Notes under the pieces: model-generated
The model's input: the letters and a program-made list of their open reading frames with translations, nothing else
Databases searched by the model: none
What the model was told of the DNA's origin: nothing
NCBI RefSeq assembly: GCF_001282685.1
Contig: NZ_LN875035.1
Coordinates: 2,466,001-2,530,000 of the forward strand
Origin: Niameybacter massiliensis
GTDB lineage: Bacteria; Bacillota; Clostridia; Lachnospirales; Cellulosilyticaceae
Direction of reading: 5' to 3'
DNA: 64,000 nucleotides
Program-made: the position numbers and the translations under genes
Shown here: positions 17,740 to 24,462 of the stretch, one piece after another
Layout: each line of letters begins with the position of its first letter
How positions within the stretch are numbered: the first letter of the stretch is position 1

Positions 17740-19077
17740 TTATTTTCTTAGATTAAAATACTTAAGAATGTCTTGAAGATGCTTCGCCTCTTCCGTTAAC
17801 ATTTCACTAATAGCCGCTCCTTCTTGCGCAGCCCCACTATTTCTTTCCGTAATATTTGTTAACTGCTTTGTTCCTTCCACAAGTTCATTCATAGTCTTTC
17901 TTTCTTGCTTACTACTTTCTATTTGACTATTAATAACTATTTCTACTTCACCTATGACTTGTAATATTTCATCAAAAGATATCGCTGTATACTCTGCTGT
18001 TTTTTTATTATCATATACCTTCTCTACATTGCTTTGAACGATTTTTTCTACTTCACTTACTATTTCTATGGTTCTATTCGCAAGCTCTCTTATCTCACTC
18101 GCTACTACAGCAAATCCTCTTCCTGACTCTCCCGCTCTTGCCGCTTCAATAGCTGCATTTAAAGCTAACAAATTCGTCTGGCTTGCTATTTCATCAATAC
18201 TCTTAACAACTGAAACAATAGCTTGACTTGAATGTGTTACTGCCTCAGTGGATTCCTTCATATTATTAATTAAATGTTTTCCTTGATTCGCCTTTAATCC
18301 TACTTGTTCTATAACGCCTATCTCTTTTTGAACACATGCAACATTTTGAGTAATCATTTGCATCATTTCTTCTATGGATGAAGCAAACTCTTGTATAATA
18401 CTTGTTTGCTCTGTAGCTGCCTCAGCAACCTCTCCAGCTCCACTTGCTACGGTCTCTGAACTAATCGTTAATTGTGTTGCCATTTCTTCTATAGGTTTGA
18501 TATTAATGGATATGTTTTCTATAAACTTCTCTATAGATATTTTTATACTTCTAAAATCTCCTGTAAAAGTATCTGAAACCATTATATTAAAGTTTCCTTT
18601 TGCCATCTCTCCCATTAACATGTCTATTTCTTTGATTTGGCACCCTAATATTTTAATTACTTGTCTTAAGTGAGTTGCTAATTCTCCTAATTCATCTTTC
18701 CCATCATACTCAATGGTTGTATTAAGATTCCCTTCTGAAAGCCCTTTTAAATCATCCTTTATTTGTTGAATGGGTCTTAAAATACTTTTTCTCATTTTTC
18801 TTGATAAAACCCACACAATACCTACAGCAGTACAAAACATTAACGCCGCTATAACCACTGTTAAATTGGCAATAGAAATTTCTTGTTCCATACTGCTTCG
18901 AATGGCTTCAATTTGTATTGGGCTTAAACCCACTTCTAGTATCTCTATAATTTTTAATAAATCACTCTTTAACAAATTAATTCCTAATACTAAAGTAAGT
19001 ACACATAAAAGTGATAATCCACCTATTGATAAAATAACAGTAATCCACTTCTTTGATATTGACATATTATTAAACAT
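17740..19077 (-). CDS. methyl-accepting chemotaxis protein with HAMP, minimal sensor
   Basis: The 445-residue receptor has two membrane helices (about residues 12-33 and 73-92) enclosing only some 40 extracytoplasmic residues, so it has almost no ligand-binding domain. A HAMP domain ([19 protein letters not shown]) and a signalling domain with [31 protein letters not shown] follow. It starts 3 bp after the cheV stop codon, so the two are translationally coupled. Such a receptor may sense the membrane state or act with the CheV and hemerythrin encoded just upstream. Confidence 0.92.
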
Positions 19078-19080
19078 ATT

Positions 19081-19977
19081 TTATCTCCCCATTAATCTAT
19101 TGATTTCTTCTACCAATACCTTTATTGAAGGTTTACTAATTTGAGAATCGGCGCCTACCTCCATCCCTTTATGTTTTAATTCCTCTGTAATTAAAGAAGA
19201 AAAGAGAATGACCTTTAGCCTTTGGAGCGTCTCATCACTTTTTATCCATTTTGTTAAACTATATCCATCTAAAACAGGCATCTCTATATCTGAAATAAGC
19301 AAATCTATCTTTTTATAAAACTCTTGTCCATATTGATTCTTTAATTCGTAAATATAGTCTTTAGCTTCTTGCCCATTATTGAAAATTTTTATATTTCTAA
19401 AACCAGCCTCTTCAAGCGTACATCTTAACATCTCACATATAGCTTTAGAGTCTTCTGCCAAAACAATTTTTATATTTTTTAACCTATGATTTTTCTGTAC
19501 TTTTTGCCCTTGTGCCTCATAGCCTTTTCCAATCTTTGCGCCTATTGCAATACTCTCAAAATCCAACATCACAGTAACATGTCCATCACTTAAAATTGTA
19601 CCTATAGTTAAATTTTTTTCTGAGATTTGTTCTATTGGATTGATATCTTTCCATGATATTCTTTTAATTTGCTCCACATAATCTACTAAAAATATAACTT
19701 GGGTTCCATTAAATTCACATAATAATCCTAGTGCATGTTGATATTGTTCCCTTGGCTTACTACATAAAAGTTGCTGGAGGTCAATCACTACACTTACTTT
19801 CCCCCTTACATGAGCTAAACCGGCTATTTCCTCCGAAGCTTTAGGTACTTTTATAACTTCATTTATAGGAATGATTTCTCTTACTTTCAAAACATTTATG
19901 CCATAAAACTGTCCATTTATCATAAACTCTATAATTTCAAGTTCACCATTTCCTACCTTTAATAAAATTTCACTCAT
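19081..19977 (-). CDS. cheV: CheV: CheW-REC chemotaxis coupling protein
   Basis: The 298-residue protein joins an N-terminal CheW-like domain (about 12-150; FYGINVLKVREIIPI, LAHVRGKVSVVIDLQQLL) to a C-terminal receiver domain (about 170-298). The receiver keeps the acidic pair in VLAEDS, the phosphoacceptor Asp in LISDIEMPVLDG, the Ser in LFSS and the Lys in ISKPS. CheV couples receptors to the CheA kinase and helps adaptation through its phosphorylation. It is 16 bp downstream of the hemerythrin gene and 3 bp upstream of a receptor gene. Confidence 0.93.
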   Translation of the reverse strand: MSEILLKVGNGELEIIEFMINGQFYGINVLKVREIIPINEVIKVPKASEEIAGLAHVRGKVSVVIDLQQLLCSKPREQYQHALGLLCEFNGTQVIFLVDYVEQIKRISWKDINPIEQISEKNLTIGTILSDGHVTVMLDFESIAIGAKIGKGYEAQGQKVQKNHRLKNIKIVLAEDSKAICEMLRCTLEEAGFRNIKIFNNGQEAKDYIYELKNQYGQEFYKKIDLLISDIEMPVLDGYSLTKWIKSDETLQRLKVILFSSLITEELKHKGMEVGADSQISKPSIKVLVEEINRLMGR

Positions 19978-19993
19978 AGCACTTCCTCCATAT

Positions 19994-20404
19994 TTAGTTA
20001 AAACCTTTCATAACTTTCATATCTTCAATAAGTATATGATTAAGTACCCATTCTTGAAGAATAATATTTAAATATTTAATGCCTTCTTGTTGATCTTCTA
20101 CTAATTTTATACAGTTAATCTTATTTATTTTTTCTATCAAGTCATCATGTAATGCTTTATGCTCTTTTAGAGCTTCTTTGTTGATTTGCTCAATAACCGC
20201 TTCCTCTGTATGAAAATGATAGGTAATATACTCTCTCACCTCACATAGATACTTCAATACTTCCTGCTCACTTATTTGCCCTGTCCTCGTTAAAATAAGT
20301 TGTTCTAGATCTCTTCCTATTCTAAATAATTCTTTATGCTGCTCATCTATTTCATTTATCCCTACACTAATACGATTGTCCCAATTAAATTTAAAATCTA
20401 GCAT
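19994..20404 (-). CDS. bacteriohemerythrin
   Basis: The 136-residue single-domain protein has all seven ligands of a hemerythrin di-iron site: H23, H63 with E67 (HFHTE), H82 and H86 (HKALH), and H123 with D128 (HILIED). It opens with the family-typical WDNRISVGINEIDEQHKELF. Such proteins bind O2 reversibly and can store it, scavenge it or report it to receptors. Its place in a cluster of chemoreceptors and cheV suggests a role in oxygen avoidance, which is inference. Confidence 0.95.
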   Translation of the reverse strand: MLDFKFNWDNRISVGINEIDEQHKELFRIGRDLEQLILTRTGQISEQEVLKYLCEVREYITYHFHTEEAVIEQINKEALKEHKALHDDLIEKINKINCIKLVEDQQEGIKYLNIILQEWVLNHILIEDMKVMKGFN

Positions 20405-20491: not shown

Positions 20492-22813
20492 TTACAATTT
20501 ATAACTACTAATAAAACTTTCTAATTGATCTGTATCAATCTTAATACTATTTGATGTTACATCCATTATTTCTGCTACTTGCTTAATATTTTCTGCATTC
20601 TTTGTGATATTTTCTGCATACTCTAGTTGTTTTTTAGAAATTTCATATATTTCTTCGATATTTATTTCTACTGAGGTATTTTTTTCTTGAATACTATAAC
20701 CTGTATCATAAACACTGTTTGCATTATCACTTACAATTTTTATTAATTCTTTTATCTTTTTAAATAACTCAATCATTATTTTACTGTTATATTCTTGTAG
20801 CTCTATTTGAGTACCTAAGTTCTCTTTTGTTCTACTGATTACTTCAATATTTTCAGTAATTAAGTCTGTCTTTTCCACGATTTCACTTAATATAGTTTCC
20901 GTCGCACTAGCCAATTTGCTTATTTCTTTTGCCAGTACAACAAAACCTTTCCCACTTTCTCCTGCTCTTGCAGCTTCAATGGTTGTATTAAGCGCTAGGA
21001 TATTCGTTGTAGCTGCTATATTTTTTATTGCTCCAACTAATTCGCCTACTTTTTCTACATTATAATTAGTGGTTATAACGGATTCTTCTAAATCTCTAAA
21101 GGAACTAGAAGTTTCTTGCATAATCTCTTCAAGCTTCGTTAATTCTCTTTCTCCAACCAAAGTCATTTCTGTTACTTGATCTGTACTTTGTGTTACTTCT
21201 TTCACGTTATCTTTAATATGTAGTAAATGCATCTTAAACTCATTTAAGTTACCTATGATGCTCTGAATATTCCTTACTTGATTATTTGCTCCCTCTAAAG
21301 AATCAACAAGTTCTTTATCAATATCTTGGATATTTACATTAAGCTCTTGTGAGTACTTTGTAAGCACTAACGCTTGATTAATACGTTCTTTCATTTGATA
21401 TCTTATATCACGTATTACTTTGACTAATCCTTTTTGAGTATGTGTAATTGCTCTTGCCATTACCCCAACATCATCTGTTCGCTTTAAGTAGCGATCATCT
21501 ATCTCATCTGATAAATCCCCATTTATAATCTTATCTGAGAACTCTGCAATCTGATTATTTCTTTTATATTTTGTGGCTTCATGTAGCTTTACGAAAGGCG
21601 CATAAATTATTACTCCAACTATGATATTAATAAACTGTAAAATAGCTCCTGCAAACGAACCTGTAATCACTACACCACTAATAAATACAGGTGATGTCCA
21701 GTGGCTATTCGCCGTAACAATTGGAACTAACTCCATACTTGTTGCTAGATAAGAAATAATATTTAATACAATAGGTACACCTATAAATGGAATTAAAAAG
21801 ATAGGATTAAGCACAATAGGCAGCCCTAACACAAGTAATTCATTTACATTAAATAGCCCCATAATAATCGCTAGTGTAGCTATACGACGCGTATGCTTTT
21901 TCTTGCTAAAAATTAGCATAGCAATTGCTAGACATAAAGTTGCTCCCGATCCTCCTAAATACACAAAGAAATCAAAAAACGGTTGATTAAAGATTTCTGT
22001 TGCAATACCCCCATTAGCTATAGCCATTACATTCGCTTCAATATTAGGAACAAATATATTATTATTAAGTCCCTCTGTAACAGCTGATCCATGGATTCCA
22101 AAGAACCATGCCACTTGGTTAAGTAATATGTATATGATGGATGTTAATAGCCCGTTTCCTAGGTTATTAAATGGCATTTGTATCATACTATAGAAGAAAT
22201 TATAAATGTCTCGAGTATTAAATATTAACATAAAAATTTGACGTGTTGTCGCTACAATAATAATAGTAAGCAACGCTGGTACAATAACTTCAAATGCTTT
22301 TCTACTGTTATCACTTACCTCACCTACTGGAATACGTATTCTTAATTTTTCTTTTCTATAGAAATAAGCAAATAGATTGGTTATAACAATAGCTATCAAG
22401 ATAGCCATACACATCCCTTTTGTACCTAAATCCTTATAATCTGCGCCCCCCTCTATTGTTGGCTCTAGCAAAATAAACAAGGTAACAATGGCTATTAGAA
22501 TAGCTGTAGATTGGGGTACCCCTTTATGATCTGCTACTTTGTTCGTTAAACTAATCAATAACAGAATGGATAATATGCCAAATGTCCCTTGCCATATCAT
22601 GCCACCATAACTCTTCCATCCTTCTCCAAATAGTTCTATCATTAAATTCTGATACGCATCTATAGGTAAATTGTTCATTATAGTAAAAAATGAACCTATA
22701 AGTACCAATGGAATTAATTCAATGAAAGCTTCTTTGATCATCATAAGATATTTCTTTTCACTAATTTTATTTTGTATATTTAGAACGTGCATTTTTACAA
22801 CTTGTTTATTCAT
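20492..22813 (-). CDS. chemoreceptor with PTS EIIC sugar-permease sensor (EIIC-HAMP-MCP fusion)
   Basis: The 773-residue protein joins two systems that are normally separate. Residues about 15-410 form a complete lactose/cellobiose/chitobiose-type EIIC permease with roughly ten membrane helices. It keeps the pocket histidine (FGIHGS, H241) and the glutamate of the NEPI loop (E325), although the loop here reads [16 protein letters not shown]-like linker (about 425-470) and a methyl-accepting signalling domain follow, with the tip [27 protein letters not shown]. No EIIA or EIIB is encoded nearby. The likely role is sensing of a beta-glucoside or disaccharide and direct control of CheA. ATG 22813 has GGGAG six bases upstream; the earlier ATG 22840 has no site. 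It is the third gene of the EAL operon. Confidence 0.9.
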
Positions 22814-22864
22814 TTGTTTCTCCCTATATTTAGATTCCATTTACTTATCAGTTATTTTGTTGTA

Positions 22865-23686
22865 TCAACATTCAAAAAGGTCTGCTAAATATTCTACATA
22901 TTTTATCTCATATTTATTAGATTGACTTCTCATGTACTCTAGAATATCTTCTAGCTTATTCCTTTTATCTGAATATGTCTGATATTCGAAGCAATCTGCT
23001 ACAGCAACTATTTTGGATTGTTCTATCATTTTCTCTCCTCTTAATTTGTGTGGATACCCACTACCATCTAAACATTCATGATGTTGAAGAATAATATTTT
23101 TACTGACCTCTGGAAATTTTATATTTTGAATCACGCCTACTCCTAGCTCACAATGCTTCTCAAATATTACATGCTCCTCTTGGGAAAAAGTGTTCCTATT
23201 TTCATAATGTAGATTATTAGGAATAAGCATCATCCCTATATCATGAAAGAATGCTCCTAATACTATTTCTTGTATTTCCTCTTCAGTATACTTGCATTGT
23301 TTCGCTATTAAAGCTGCAATAATAGCCACATTCATAGAATGAGAGTAATACCATGGAAGTGTATTAATATATGTATTTAAATGAATATACCATCCTTCAG
23401 CTTTCTTTTTATAAATGATATCTTGTATAAGAGGAATGGTAGCGTAGTATTTCTCATAAAACACTTCATACTTTTCTCCTATATTATGAGTTGGAATAAC
23501 AATTTTACCCCATTCATCCCTATATAAATTATTCTTTTGAATATTTATTAACTCTTGTATATCTATGCCATAGCACTTTAACTTTTTCAACAAATGCCTA
23601 TTATGATCTACACGTGTTCCCTTTGAAAGAATAAGTACACCTTGCTCATTAAAAATGTCTTCTTGTATCACTAATTCTTTATCCAT
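22865..23686 (-). CDS. HD-GYP domain c-di-GMP phosphodiesterase
   Basis: The 273-residue protein has an N-terminal region of about 100 residues of unknown fold and an HD-GYP domain. Visible motifs are H116 (YSHSMNV), the HD pair H148-D149 (FFHDIGM), HHECLDGSGYP at 202-212 and VAVADCFEYQTYSD. The GYP motif is intact, which indicates hydrolysis of cyclic di-GMP to GMP rather than a generic HD phosphohydrolase. It lies 14 bp after the EAL gene and 51 bp before the EIIC-receptor gene. Confidence 0.9.
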   Translation of the reverse strand: MDKELVIQEDIFNEQGVLILSKGTRVDHNRHLLKKLKCYGIDIQELINIQKNNLYRDEWGKIVIPTHNIGEKYEVFYEKYYATIPLIQDIIYKKKAEGWYIHLNTYINTLPWYYSHSMNVAIIAALIAKQCKYTEEEIQEIVLGAFFHDIGMMLIPNNLHYENRNTFSQEEHVIFEKHCELGVGVIQNIKFPEVSKNIILQHHECLDGSGYPHKLRGEKMIEQSKIVAVADCFEYQTYSDKRNKLEDILEYMRSQSNKYEIKYVEYLADLFEC

Positions 23687-23700
23687 TCTAACTCCTTTTC

Positions 23701-24462
23701 TTAAATTTTATAAAATTCACTTAAACAACTTGGTTTTCCTATATAGTAACCTTGTATGATATGACATGGCGTATGATATCTAATATATTCATACTCTTCT
23801 CTACTTTCTATTCCTTCTGCTATTATCGACAGCTCTAATACATTGGCCATTTGTATAATAAAGTCTAACAATGCTTGGCTTATCTCATTTTTATGTATAT
23901 CTCTTATTAAATCTTTATCAATTTTTAAAATATCAAAATTTAATTTTCTTAGGCATTCAATATTTGCAAAGCCTTTCCCAAAATCATCTATTGCTATTTT
24001 CATTCCATATTGTCTTAGCTTTTCTATATTACTTTGGGCATGCCTAAAATCTAGAATTCTTATTTCTTCAGTAAGTTCTATTTCTAGCTTATTAAACCAT
24101 TCTGGCTTATTTATAAAAAGTGACTCTACTTCTTGCATAAATCTTACACTGCAAAGACTCTTAGCTGATAAGTTAATAGCTACTGGATAACTATATAACT
24201 TATCTTCTTCCATCTTCCATATATTTTCTATTGCTTTATGTAAGACCCATATATCAAGATCTATTATTTTTCCTAATTTAAAAACATCTTCAAAAAAATC
24301 ATTTGGACCTATTTCTCCTAGATAAGGATGCTGCCATCTTATTAAAGCCTCTAGTCCAATAATCTTCTCTTCTTCTAGATCATATTTAGGCTGGTAATAT
24401 AATATAAATTGATTTTTTAAAAAAGCTTCTTCTAATGCTTGAGGTGTTATACTTTTCTTCAT
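23701..24462 (-). CDS. EAL domain c-di-GMP phosphodiesterase
   Basis: The 253-residue protein is a single EAL domain with no GGDEF partner or membrane segment. Catalytic elements appear complete: EAL at 38-40 (GLEALIRWQHP), N97 (INLSAKS), E132 (IELTEE), D159-D160 (IDDFGKGF), K180 (ILKIDK), E216 (IIAEGIES) and Q237 (IIQGYYIGKP). It should linearise cyclic di-GMP to pGpG. It is the first gene of the operon with the HD-GYP and EIIC-receptor genes, behind a promoter that carries a LytTR-type direct repeat. Confidence 0.94.
   Translation of the reverse strand: MKKSITPQALEEAFLKNQFILYYQPKYDLEEEKIIGLEALIRWQHPYLGEIGPNDFFEDVFKLGKIIDLDIWVLHKAIENIWKMEEDKLYSYPVAINLSAKSLCSVRFMQEVESLFINKPEWFNKLEIELTEEIRILDFRHAQSNIEKLRQYGMKIAIDDFGKGFANIECLRKLNFDILKIDKDLIRDIHKNEISQALLDFIIQMANVLELSIIAEGIESREEYEYIRYHTPCHIIQGYYIGKPSCLSEFYKI

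Follow-up and report, generated by a model that had tools for sequence, protein, structure and literature searches.

A putative sugar chemoreceptor of Niameybacter massiliensis with a PTS EIIC domain as its sensor

In Niameybacter massiliensis, one uninterrupted gene joins a full PTS EIIC domain of the ChbC type, a HAMP-like linker and an MCP signalling domain. The fusion is real, and on balance we regard it as probable that its product senses a sugar directly, without transporting it, and signals to CheA, and that it arose by a swap of MCP for EAL on an EIIC-EAL-like sensor. Direct wiring from sugar to CheA is the best reading because the ligand residues are intact, the CheA/CheW hairpin is well kept and no PTS partners are seen beside the gene. 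The new element is the origin of the EIIC part, i.e. an existing class of EIIC sensors has probably acquired a new output here, and the protein is probably no working permease.

As we infer it from the sequence, the EIIC domain would have turned into a sugar receptor, with a disaccharide similar to cellobiose or chitobiose as the probable ligand. Sugar in the pocket would shift the mobile part of an EIIC dimer, and the last membrane helix, continuous with the HAMP-like linker, would convey this movement to the long MCP rod. The tip of the rod would then set CheA activity and with it a taxis response, while EI, HPr, EIIA and EIIB would be unneeded. Such a movement of an EIIC on ligand without phosphotransfer is plausible because the EIIC-Glc pair of E. 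coli gives a FRET conformational response to glucose even without EI, as described in a passage of PMC4996493. The first-pass annotation had suggested that sugar binding or transport could be wired straight to CheA; the direct wiring stands as the best reading, but the lost permease residues favour binding without transport.

The fusion gene and its neighbourhood

The gene lies on the minus strand of the window, i.e. the whole stretch of 64,000 nucleotides that was analysed, as a frame of 782 codons without stop (22840..20492). Its second Met, M10 at position 22813, where the first-pass annotation also placed the start, is preceded by AGGGAG at a distance of six bases and would start a product of 773 aa, which makes this start likelier than the one at 22840 (782 aa); by ORF reading and Pfam, the likelier CDS of the EIIC-MCP chemoreceptor is thus 20492..22813. 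The residue numbering of the fusion protein follows the 782-aa ORF throughout. Pfam detects PTS_EIIC (PF02378) at residues 37-353, covering profile positions 2-316 of 319 (E 8.9e-36, 124 bits), and MCPsignal at residues 569-725 (E 5.3e-21, 75.7 bits against a cut-off of 34.6). Both matches are far above chance level and confirm the earlier claim of EIIC and MCP in one uninterrupted frame; the linker between them matches a home-made HAMP-like profile (1.2e-5, see below). An assembly join as the source of the fusion is unlikely, because the frame is single, the window contains no N, the two halves have a GC content of 0.325 and 0.299, the contig is longer than 3 Mb and the same architecture recurs in three other genomes.

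The MCP signalling domain (residues 569-725, positions 20666..21136, minus strand; Pfam and hairpin alignment) has its hairpin tip near residue 617. The CheA/CheW hairpin aligns without gaps with those of 23 other MCPs of the same genome and carries T where 21 of the 23 have Q. From the tip to the C-end the fusion has 166 residues, and 15 of the 23 have 165-168. A strict methylation consensus was not found in the MCP half of the fusion, as is also the case for 9 of the 23. The 4.57-Mb genome contains 12 matches to EIIC, 25 to MCP and a single one to CheA.

The fusion is part of a row of genes, all on the minus strand and with gaps of 3-87 bases, which was established by ORF reading and Pfam. 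First in this likely operon is an EAL gene for a c-di-GMP phosphodiesterase (23701..24462), followed by an HD_5 gene, which is of HD-GYP type by motif (22865..23686). The fusion comes next, and beyond it lie a single-domain hemerythrin gene (19994..20404), a CheV gene with CheW and receiver domains (19081..19977) and a HAMP-MCP chemoreceptor gene (17740..19077). A di-iron protein has reportedly been found to act as an oxygen sensor in chemotaxis (Muok 2019). Because the EAL and HD_5 genes lie upstream of the fusion, its stimulus may be linked to c-di-GMP as well. The composition of the row, above all these two genes, would also suit an MCP part that drives c-di-GMP or gene control instead of flagellar motion. 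However, the single CheA and the 25 MCP matches suggest one common array and the adjoining CheV fits an ordinary one, which makes such an output distinctly unlikely.

The EAL gene was also considered as the cut-off EAL domain of an ancestral EIIC-EAL. This origin was not supported: its BLAST identity to the EAL domains of the EIIC-EAL rows listed (29-34%) is about the same as that to other EAL domains of the genome (29-36%). Around CheV in eight relatives, no operon with an EIIC-MCP was found; CheV is present and MCP genes occur in some of these regions, of which some end at contig ends. For a relative of the HD_5 gene, one additional region was read (in G007). Another neighbourhood of CheV and c-di-GMP was observed in the relative G022, where the gene after CheV is an ORF of 570 aa that matches EAL (L246, 5829-8443).

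EIIA and EIIB of the Lac/Cel type are only about 100 aa long. Neither of them was detected by Pfam in 30 proteins (the hemerythrin protein and 29 out of 42 ORFs with at least 200 aa in the window), and no similar small gene was recognized by eye among the ORFs of at least 90 aa at 14-30 kb of the window. Within this scope, the absence of a nearby EIIA or EIIB, as claimed in the first-pass annotation, holds. Elsewhere in the genome, one cellobiose-type EIIC (on C8) adjoins an EIIB and an EIIA, both read by eye, and retains the motifs VPPAV and NEP. The genome furthermore encodes one EIIC-EAL (on C10; L250:5453-9734), which adjoins an ORF with a GGEEF motif. If the first start codon is used, the EIIC-EAL ORF overlaps this upstream ORF by approximately 35 bases, and the two are therefore probably co-translated.

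The EIIC domain, its pocket and its last helix

The EIIC domain (residues 16-425, positions 21566..22795, minus strand) was delimited by Pfam, a structure-sequence search and the predicted model. In a sequence search of solved structures it matches residues 6-427 of ChbC (3qnq) with an E value of 3.5e-63. The alignment is gapless from residue 209 to beyond 334; hence His250 (codon 22091..22093, minus strand) and Glu334 (21839..21841, minus strand) correspond to positions 250 and 334 of the ChbC chain. According to a passage of PMC11393339, E334 and H250 are ligand residues of IIC-Chb and are common to it and the glucose permease. The proposal that the pocket His (in FGIHGS) and Glu (in NVNEL) are kept is borne out in this way, both motifs being read in frame, and the ligand residues expected of a ChbC-like pocket are both in place by alignment. 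A degenerate pocket was not supported, since W245, H250, D290, N331, N333, E334 and W381 are all retained in the alignment columns.

For comparison, residues were counted in the columns of 96 standalone EIIC rows and 70 rows with EAL or histidine kinase output (68 EAL and 2 HK; EAL/HK rows hereafter). Altogether 170 rows were collected, including 4 with MCP; architecture labels were assigned by text patterns and three matches shorter than 350 residues were left out. The seven pocket residues occur in 66-70 of the 70 EAL/HK rows and in 81-95 of the 96 standalone rows. No phosphorylation of EIIC itself is known, and the conservation of H250 and E334 (68 and 70 of the 70 EAL/HK rows) would be needless for a mere docking platform. 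Both points make it very unlikely that the EIIC, instead of sensing sugar, serves to receive PTS phosphorylation or to dock EIIB, even though a c-di-GMP review files PTS_EIIC as a 'phosphoreceiver' in one of its passages (PMC8846402) and many partners are regulated by PTS proteins, as stated in part of PMC6978683.

Two prolines largely distinguish standalone from signalling EIICs, in a signature that was defined in the present comparison. Pro176 is found in 91 of 96 standalone rows and in none of the 70 EAL/HK rows, the fusion having Ser176, and Pro335 is found in 90 of 96 against 2 of 70, the fusion having Leu335. Two of the rows counted as standalone (L087 and L188, neither of them in the trees) resemble cut EIIC-EALs, and without them the counts are 91/94 for Pro176 and 90/94 for Pro335. 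The motif VPPAV of the standalone EIICs is replaced by VSDNS in the fusion (residues 175-179, positions 22304..22318, minus strand; 3qnq alignment and column counts). The loop NELL in place of NEPI had been pointed out before. It does differ from most standalone EIICs, but it is no oddity in the signalling class, which is usually without Pro335. Moreover, the solved ChbC itself lacks Pro335 and carries NINEM, and therefore NELL alone is no sign of a broken pocket.

From the sequence comparison, loss of the prolines would mean loss of transport, and binding without transport is favoured because these permease residues are gone. As an alternative, the protein could be a transceptor, i.e. the EIIC still transports with EIIB and EIIA from elsewhere, for example from the cellobiose-type operon on C8, and reports this transport to CheA. 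The full fold and pocket are consistent with this, as is the presence of the EIIB-EIIC-EIIA set in the genome. Furthermore, two residues of the fusion are permease-like, P171 (91/96 standalone, 4/70 EAL/HK) and V175 (90/96 and 6/70), and the AU test described below does not reject kinship with standalone EIICs (p 0.154). Nevertheless, the fusion shares the loss of Pro176 and Pro335 with 70 and 68 of the 70 EAL/HK rows and no EIIA or EIIB was seen beside it, and we consider a transceptor unlikely, though it should be kept in mind. K286, which is present in 94% of the EAL/HK rows, is absent from the fusion (Q286).

Structure prediction for the EIIC part alone gave a model with a mean pLDDT of 90.8 and a pTM of 0.87. 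Its best solved match is 3qnq (Z 26.0, rmsd 9.4 over 378 residues; Foldseek TM 0.51-0.53), and MalT 5iws matches with Z 15.7 and rmsd 4.6 over 362. The high rmsd to 3qnq probably reflects a different conformational state, but it may also stem from a flawed model.

In both predicted models, residues 396-439 form one helix, in which the last membrane helix runs unbroken into the linker (positions 21524..21655, minus strand). This helix contains G398, Q402, N405 and G409, which occur in 70, 70, 65 and 66 of the 70 EAL/HK rows and in 75, 56, 65 and 11 of the 96 standalone rows, respectively. Hence, only G409 is distinctive, because the other three are common in standalone EIICs as well.

The helix passes into a HAMP-like linker with the motif NGDL (residues 425-475, positions 21416..21568, minus strand), which was recognized by linker profiles. 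Pfam listed no HAMP match in the fusion at a maximum E of 10, with filters that discard most matches above 0.1. A HAMP-like profile was built from 11 segments of the genome's other chemoreceptors, of which 8 are HAMP by eye and about three are not, and the fusion linker matches it at 1.2e-5 (best of 200 shuffles 0.19). A second profile, made from the linkers of the 70 EAL/HK rows, matches the fusion at residues 413-466 with 1.5e-6, the 23 other MCPs of the genome scoring at least 0.31, and without the YxPF anchor the fusion still reaches 1.9e-4 (best of 200 shuffles 1.1). By these profile scores the linker is HAMP-like and is also similar to the EIIC-EAL linker. Since EIIC-EAL linkers reach just 0.017 at best against the HAMP-like profile, the linker could be a HAMP that was imported together with the MCP.

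Occurrence and descent of the fusion

EIIC-MCP proteins are rare. None was found in 23 other genomes of the family. Relatives of the fusion EIIC were sought in 392 genomes of the order, 391 of the class and 299 of the phylum, the own genome being counted in each; in the class and phylum searches scoring covered the top 2-3 candidates of each genome, so that weaker EIIC-MCPs may have escaped. Within the portion read, these relatives are EIIC-EALs and standalone EIICs and include no other chemoreceptor, and in the order search all 27 other open frames above 600 aa have EAL or EAL-like tails and none has MCP. When 84,980 species genomes were scanned with an alignment (A1), 549 loci were confirmed, of which we analysed the best 80. 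Here, 77 loci yielded 80 distinct EIIC ORFs (40 standalone, 35 with EAL, 3 with MCP and 2 with histidine kinase), and the other three (L129, L141 and L162) are EIIC-EALs that duplicate sequences already in the set. A scan of genome contigs with P0001 alone as query gave no match.

The search for proteins with both PTS_EIIC and MCPsignal was thus successful in three cases beyond N. massiliensis among the best 80 of 549 loci. They belong to an uncultured Lachnospiraceae (L143), Acetatifactor muris (L160) and bacterium 1XD21-70 (L163), and Pfam finds both domains in a single frame in each. When L143 was searched against a single family of the order (397 genomes), one more genome was found to carry an MCP half with 71% identity at a contig end. 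The hairpin of L143 is fair and those of L160 and L163 are eroded; the EIIC pocket residues of the latter two are intact. Erosion after CheA loss was not supported as an explanation, since a CheA match was present in all four genomes tested. At the signature positions, L143, L160 and L163 have A, P and A at residue 176 and I in all three at residue 335. The earlier note had named a join absent in relatives as a possible refutation of the fusion; the absence is true for the 23 other family genomes, but the architecture is present elsewhere.

Several long matches proved to be no EIIC-MCPs. In Sporomusa ovata, what appeared as a second full match (L112, residues 25-782) is actually an MCP gene adjoining an EIIC-EAL gene, and those in G713 and G881 cross stops into neighbouring genes. 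Adjoining EIIC-EAL and MCP genes, as in L112 and, by sight, in L195 (G907), are a possible halfway state to a fusion. Two spirochaete records (L114:4712-7777 and L144:908-3982) contain PTS_EIIC with HisKA, HATPase_c and receiver domains and PAS matches, which are weak in L114; as judged by these domain matches, EIIC-histidine kinases are a third output for signalling-type EIICs. Finally, an EIIC match in L279 (G725) lies in a 748-aa frame whose tail of 429 residues fits neither the EAL nor the MCP pattern and is PAS-like at sight.

For the lineage of the N. massiliensis protein itself, no second copy was found in the 23 family genomes, in the order, class and phylum genomes at the scope given above or among the best 80 of 549 loci. 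Together with the eroded hairpins of L160 and L163, two of the three proteins in the other EIIC-MCP lineage, this would fit a fusion that arose by chance in a single genome and has no function. However, the protein has retained its pocket, last helix and hairpin despite an EIIC identity of at most 38% to every tree row, and the gene sits in a tight row, and such a chance product is highly improbable.

Trees were calculated to place the EIIC. One tree of the EIIC part only comprises 94 rows, namely a random selection of 49 of 68 EAL and 39 of 96 standalone rows, into which L010 and L004 of the own genome were always taken, plus the 4 MCP and 2 HK rows. A branch with SH-aLRT 100 parts all 39 standalone EIICs from all 55 fusions (49 EIIC-EAL, 4 EIIC-MCP and 2 EIIC-histidine kinase), the N. 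massiliensis protein included. In a second tree of 42 rows, for which a few named rows were kept by choice and the long-branched L105 was left out, the standalone group is supported at 97/98, and the N. massiliensis fusion groups with 16 EIIC-EALs at 96/94. The row with the top identity to the fusion EIIC (38%) is a standalone EIIC, L113. Judged from these trees, the fusion EIIC probably belongs with an existing signalling EIIC class, consisting mostly of EIIC-EALs, and is probably not a freshly captured transporter. This grouping with the EIIC-EAL type leads us to read the fusion as a swap of the output domain, but an AU test did not reject its placement within the standalone group (p 0.154). 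One clade of the four EIIC-MCPs was not rejected either (AU p 0.32), and such a clade appears in 3% of 200 bootstrap trees.

More broadly, and with somewhat less than even confidence, this old EIIC clade may represent a general membrane sugar receptor, in which transport was given up, the pocket kept and the last helix changed. It would feed into c-di-GMP enzymes and histidine kinases and also, perhaps through two independent events, into chemotaxis arrays, and the N. massiliensis protein would be a direct sugar chemoreceptor that bypasses EI and HPr.

Comparison with known systems

Among the matches listed, in a scope that did not extend to subscription papers and Pfam architecture lists, no description of an EIIC-MCP protein was found in the literature; PMC1698476 deals, in the part available, with co-regulated separate genes. 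PTS_EIIC in c-di-GMP proteins is already in print and is called rare in a passage of PMC8846402. The fusion resembles EIIC-EAL proteins in its signalling-type EIIC, with Pro176 and Pro335 missing and Gly409 present, and in its similar linker. Unlike them it ends in an MCP rod for CheA and not in an EAL enzyme, and it differs further in having P171 and V175 and in the absence of K286. With the three other EIIC-MCPs it shares the combination of PTS_EIIC and MCPsignal in one frame, but identity over the alignment is only 26-27%, their linkers score 0.005-0.007 against the EIIC-EAL/HK linker profile, and the hairpin is eroded in two of the three. Compared to the ChbC/CelB permease (3qnq), fold and the ligand residues His250 and Glu334 are alike and the NEL loop makes no difference, since 3qnq has NEM. 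In contrast, the fusion is without VPPAV, has no EIIA or EIIB in sight and carries a signalling domain.

The pattern of kept pocket, lost permease prolines and a last-helix Gly409 provides a sequence test, by which signalling EIICs can largely be told apart from standalone permeases. It therefore offers a testable ligand class for EAL proteins with unknown input and for proteins that now bear the annotation of a permease component. Furthermore, signalling EIICs are natural proteins that might allow ligand-driven movement to be followed in the absence of phosphotransfer.

Whole transporter folds as sensors of signalling proteins have precedents in the transporter-like sensor kinases, to which CbrA belongs. 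Another of these, CrbS, joins an SLC5 domain to a histidine kinase, as described in a passage of PMC5715377. CrbS differs from the fusion in its unrelated transporter family and in its output, which is two-component and not chemotaxis. In the PTS chemotaxis of E. coli, EI and likely EIIA-Glc bind at the CheA complex, according to part of PMC4996493. Here too sugar reports to CheA, but E. coli uses soluble phosphocarriers, whereas the fusion has sensor and output on one chain. If the one-chain receptor is true, it would represent a second, direct route from PTS sugars to CheA beside the route via EI and EIIA-Glc.
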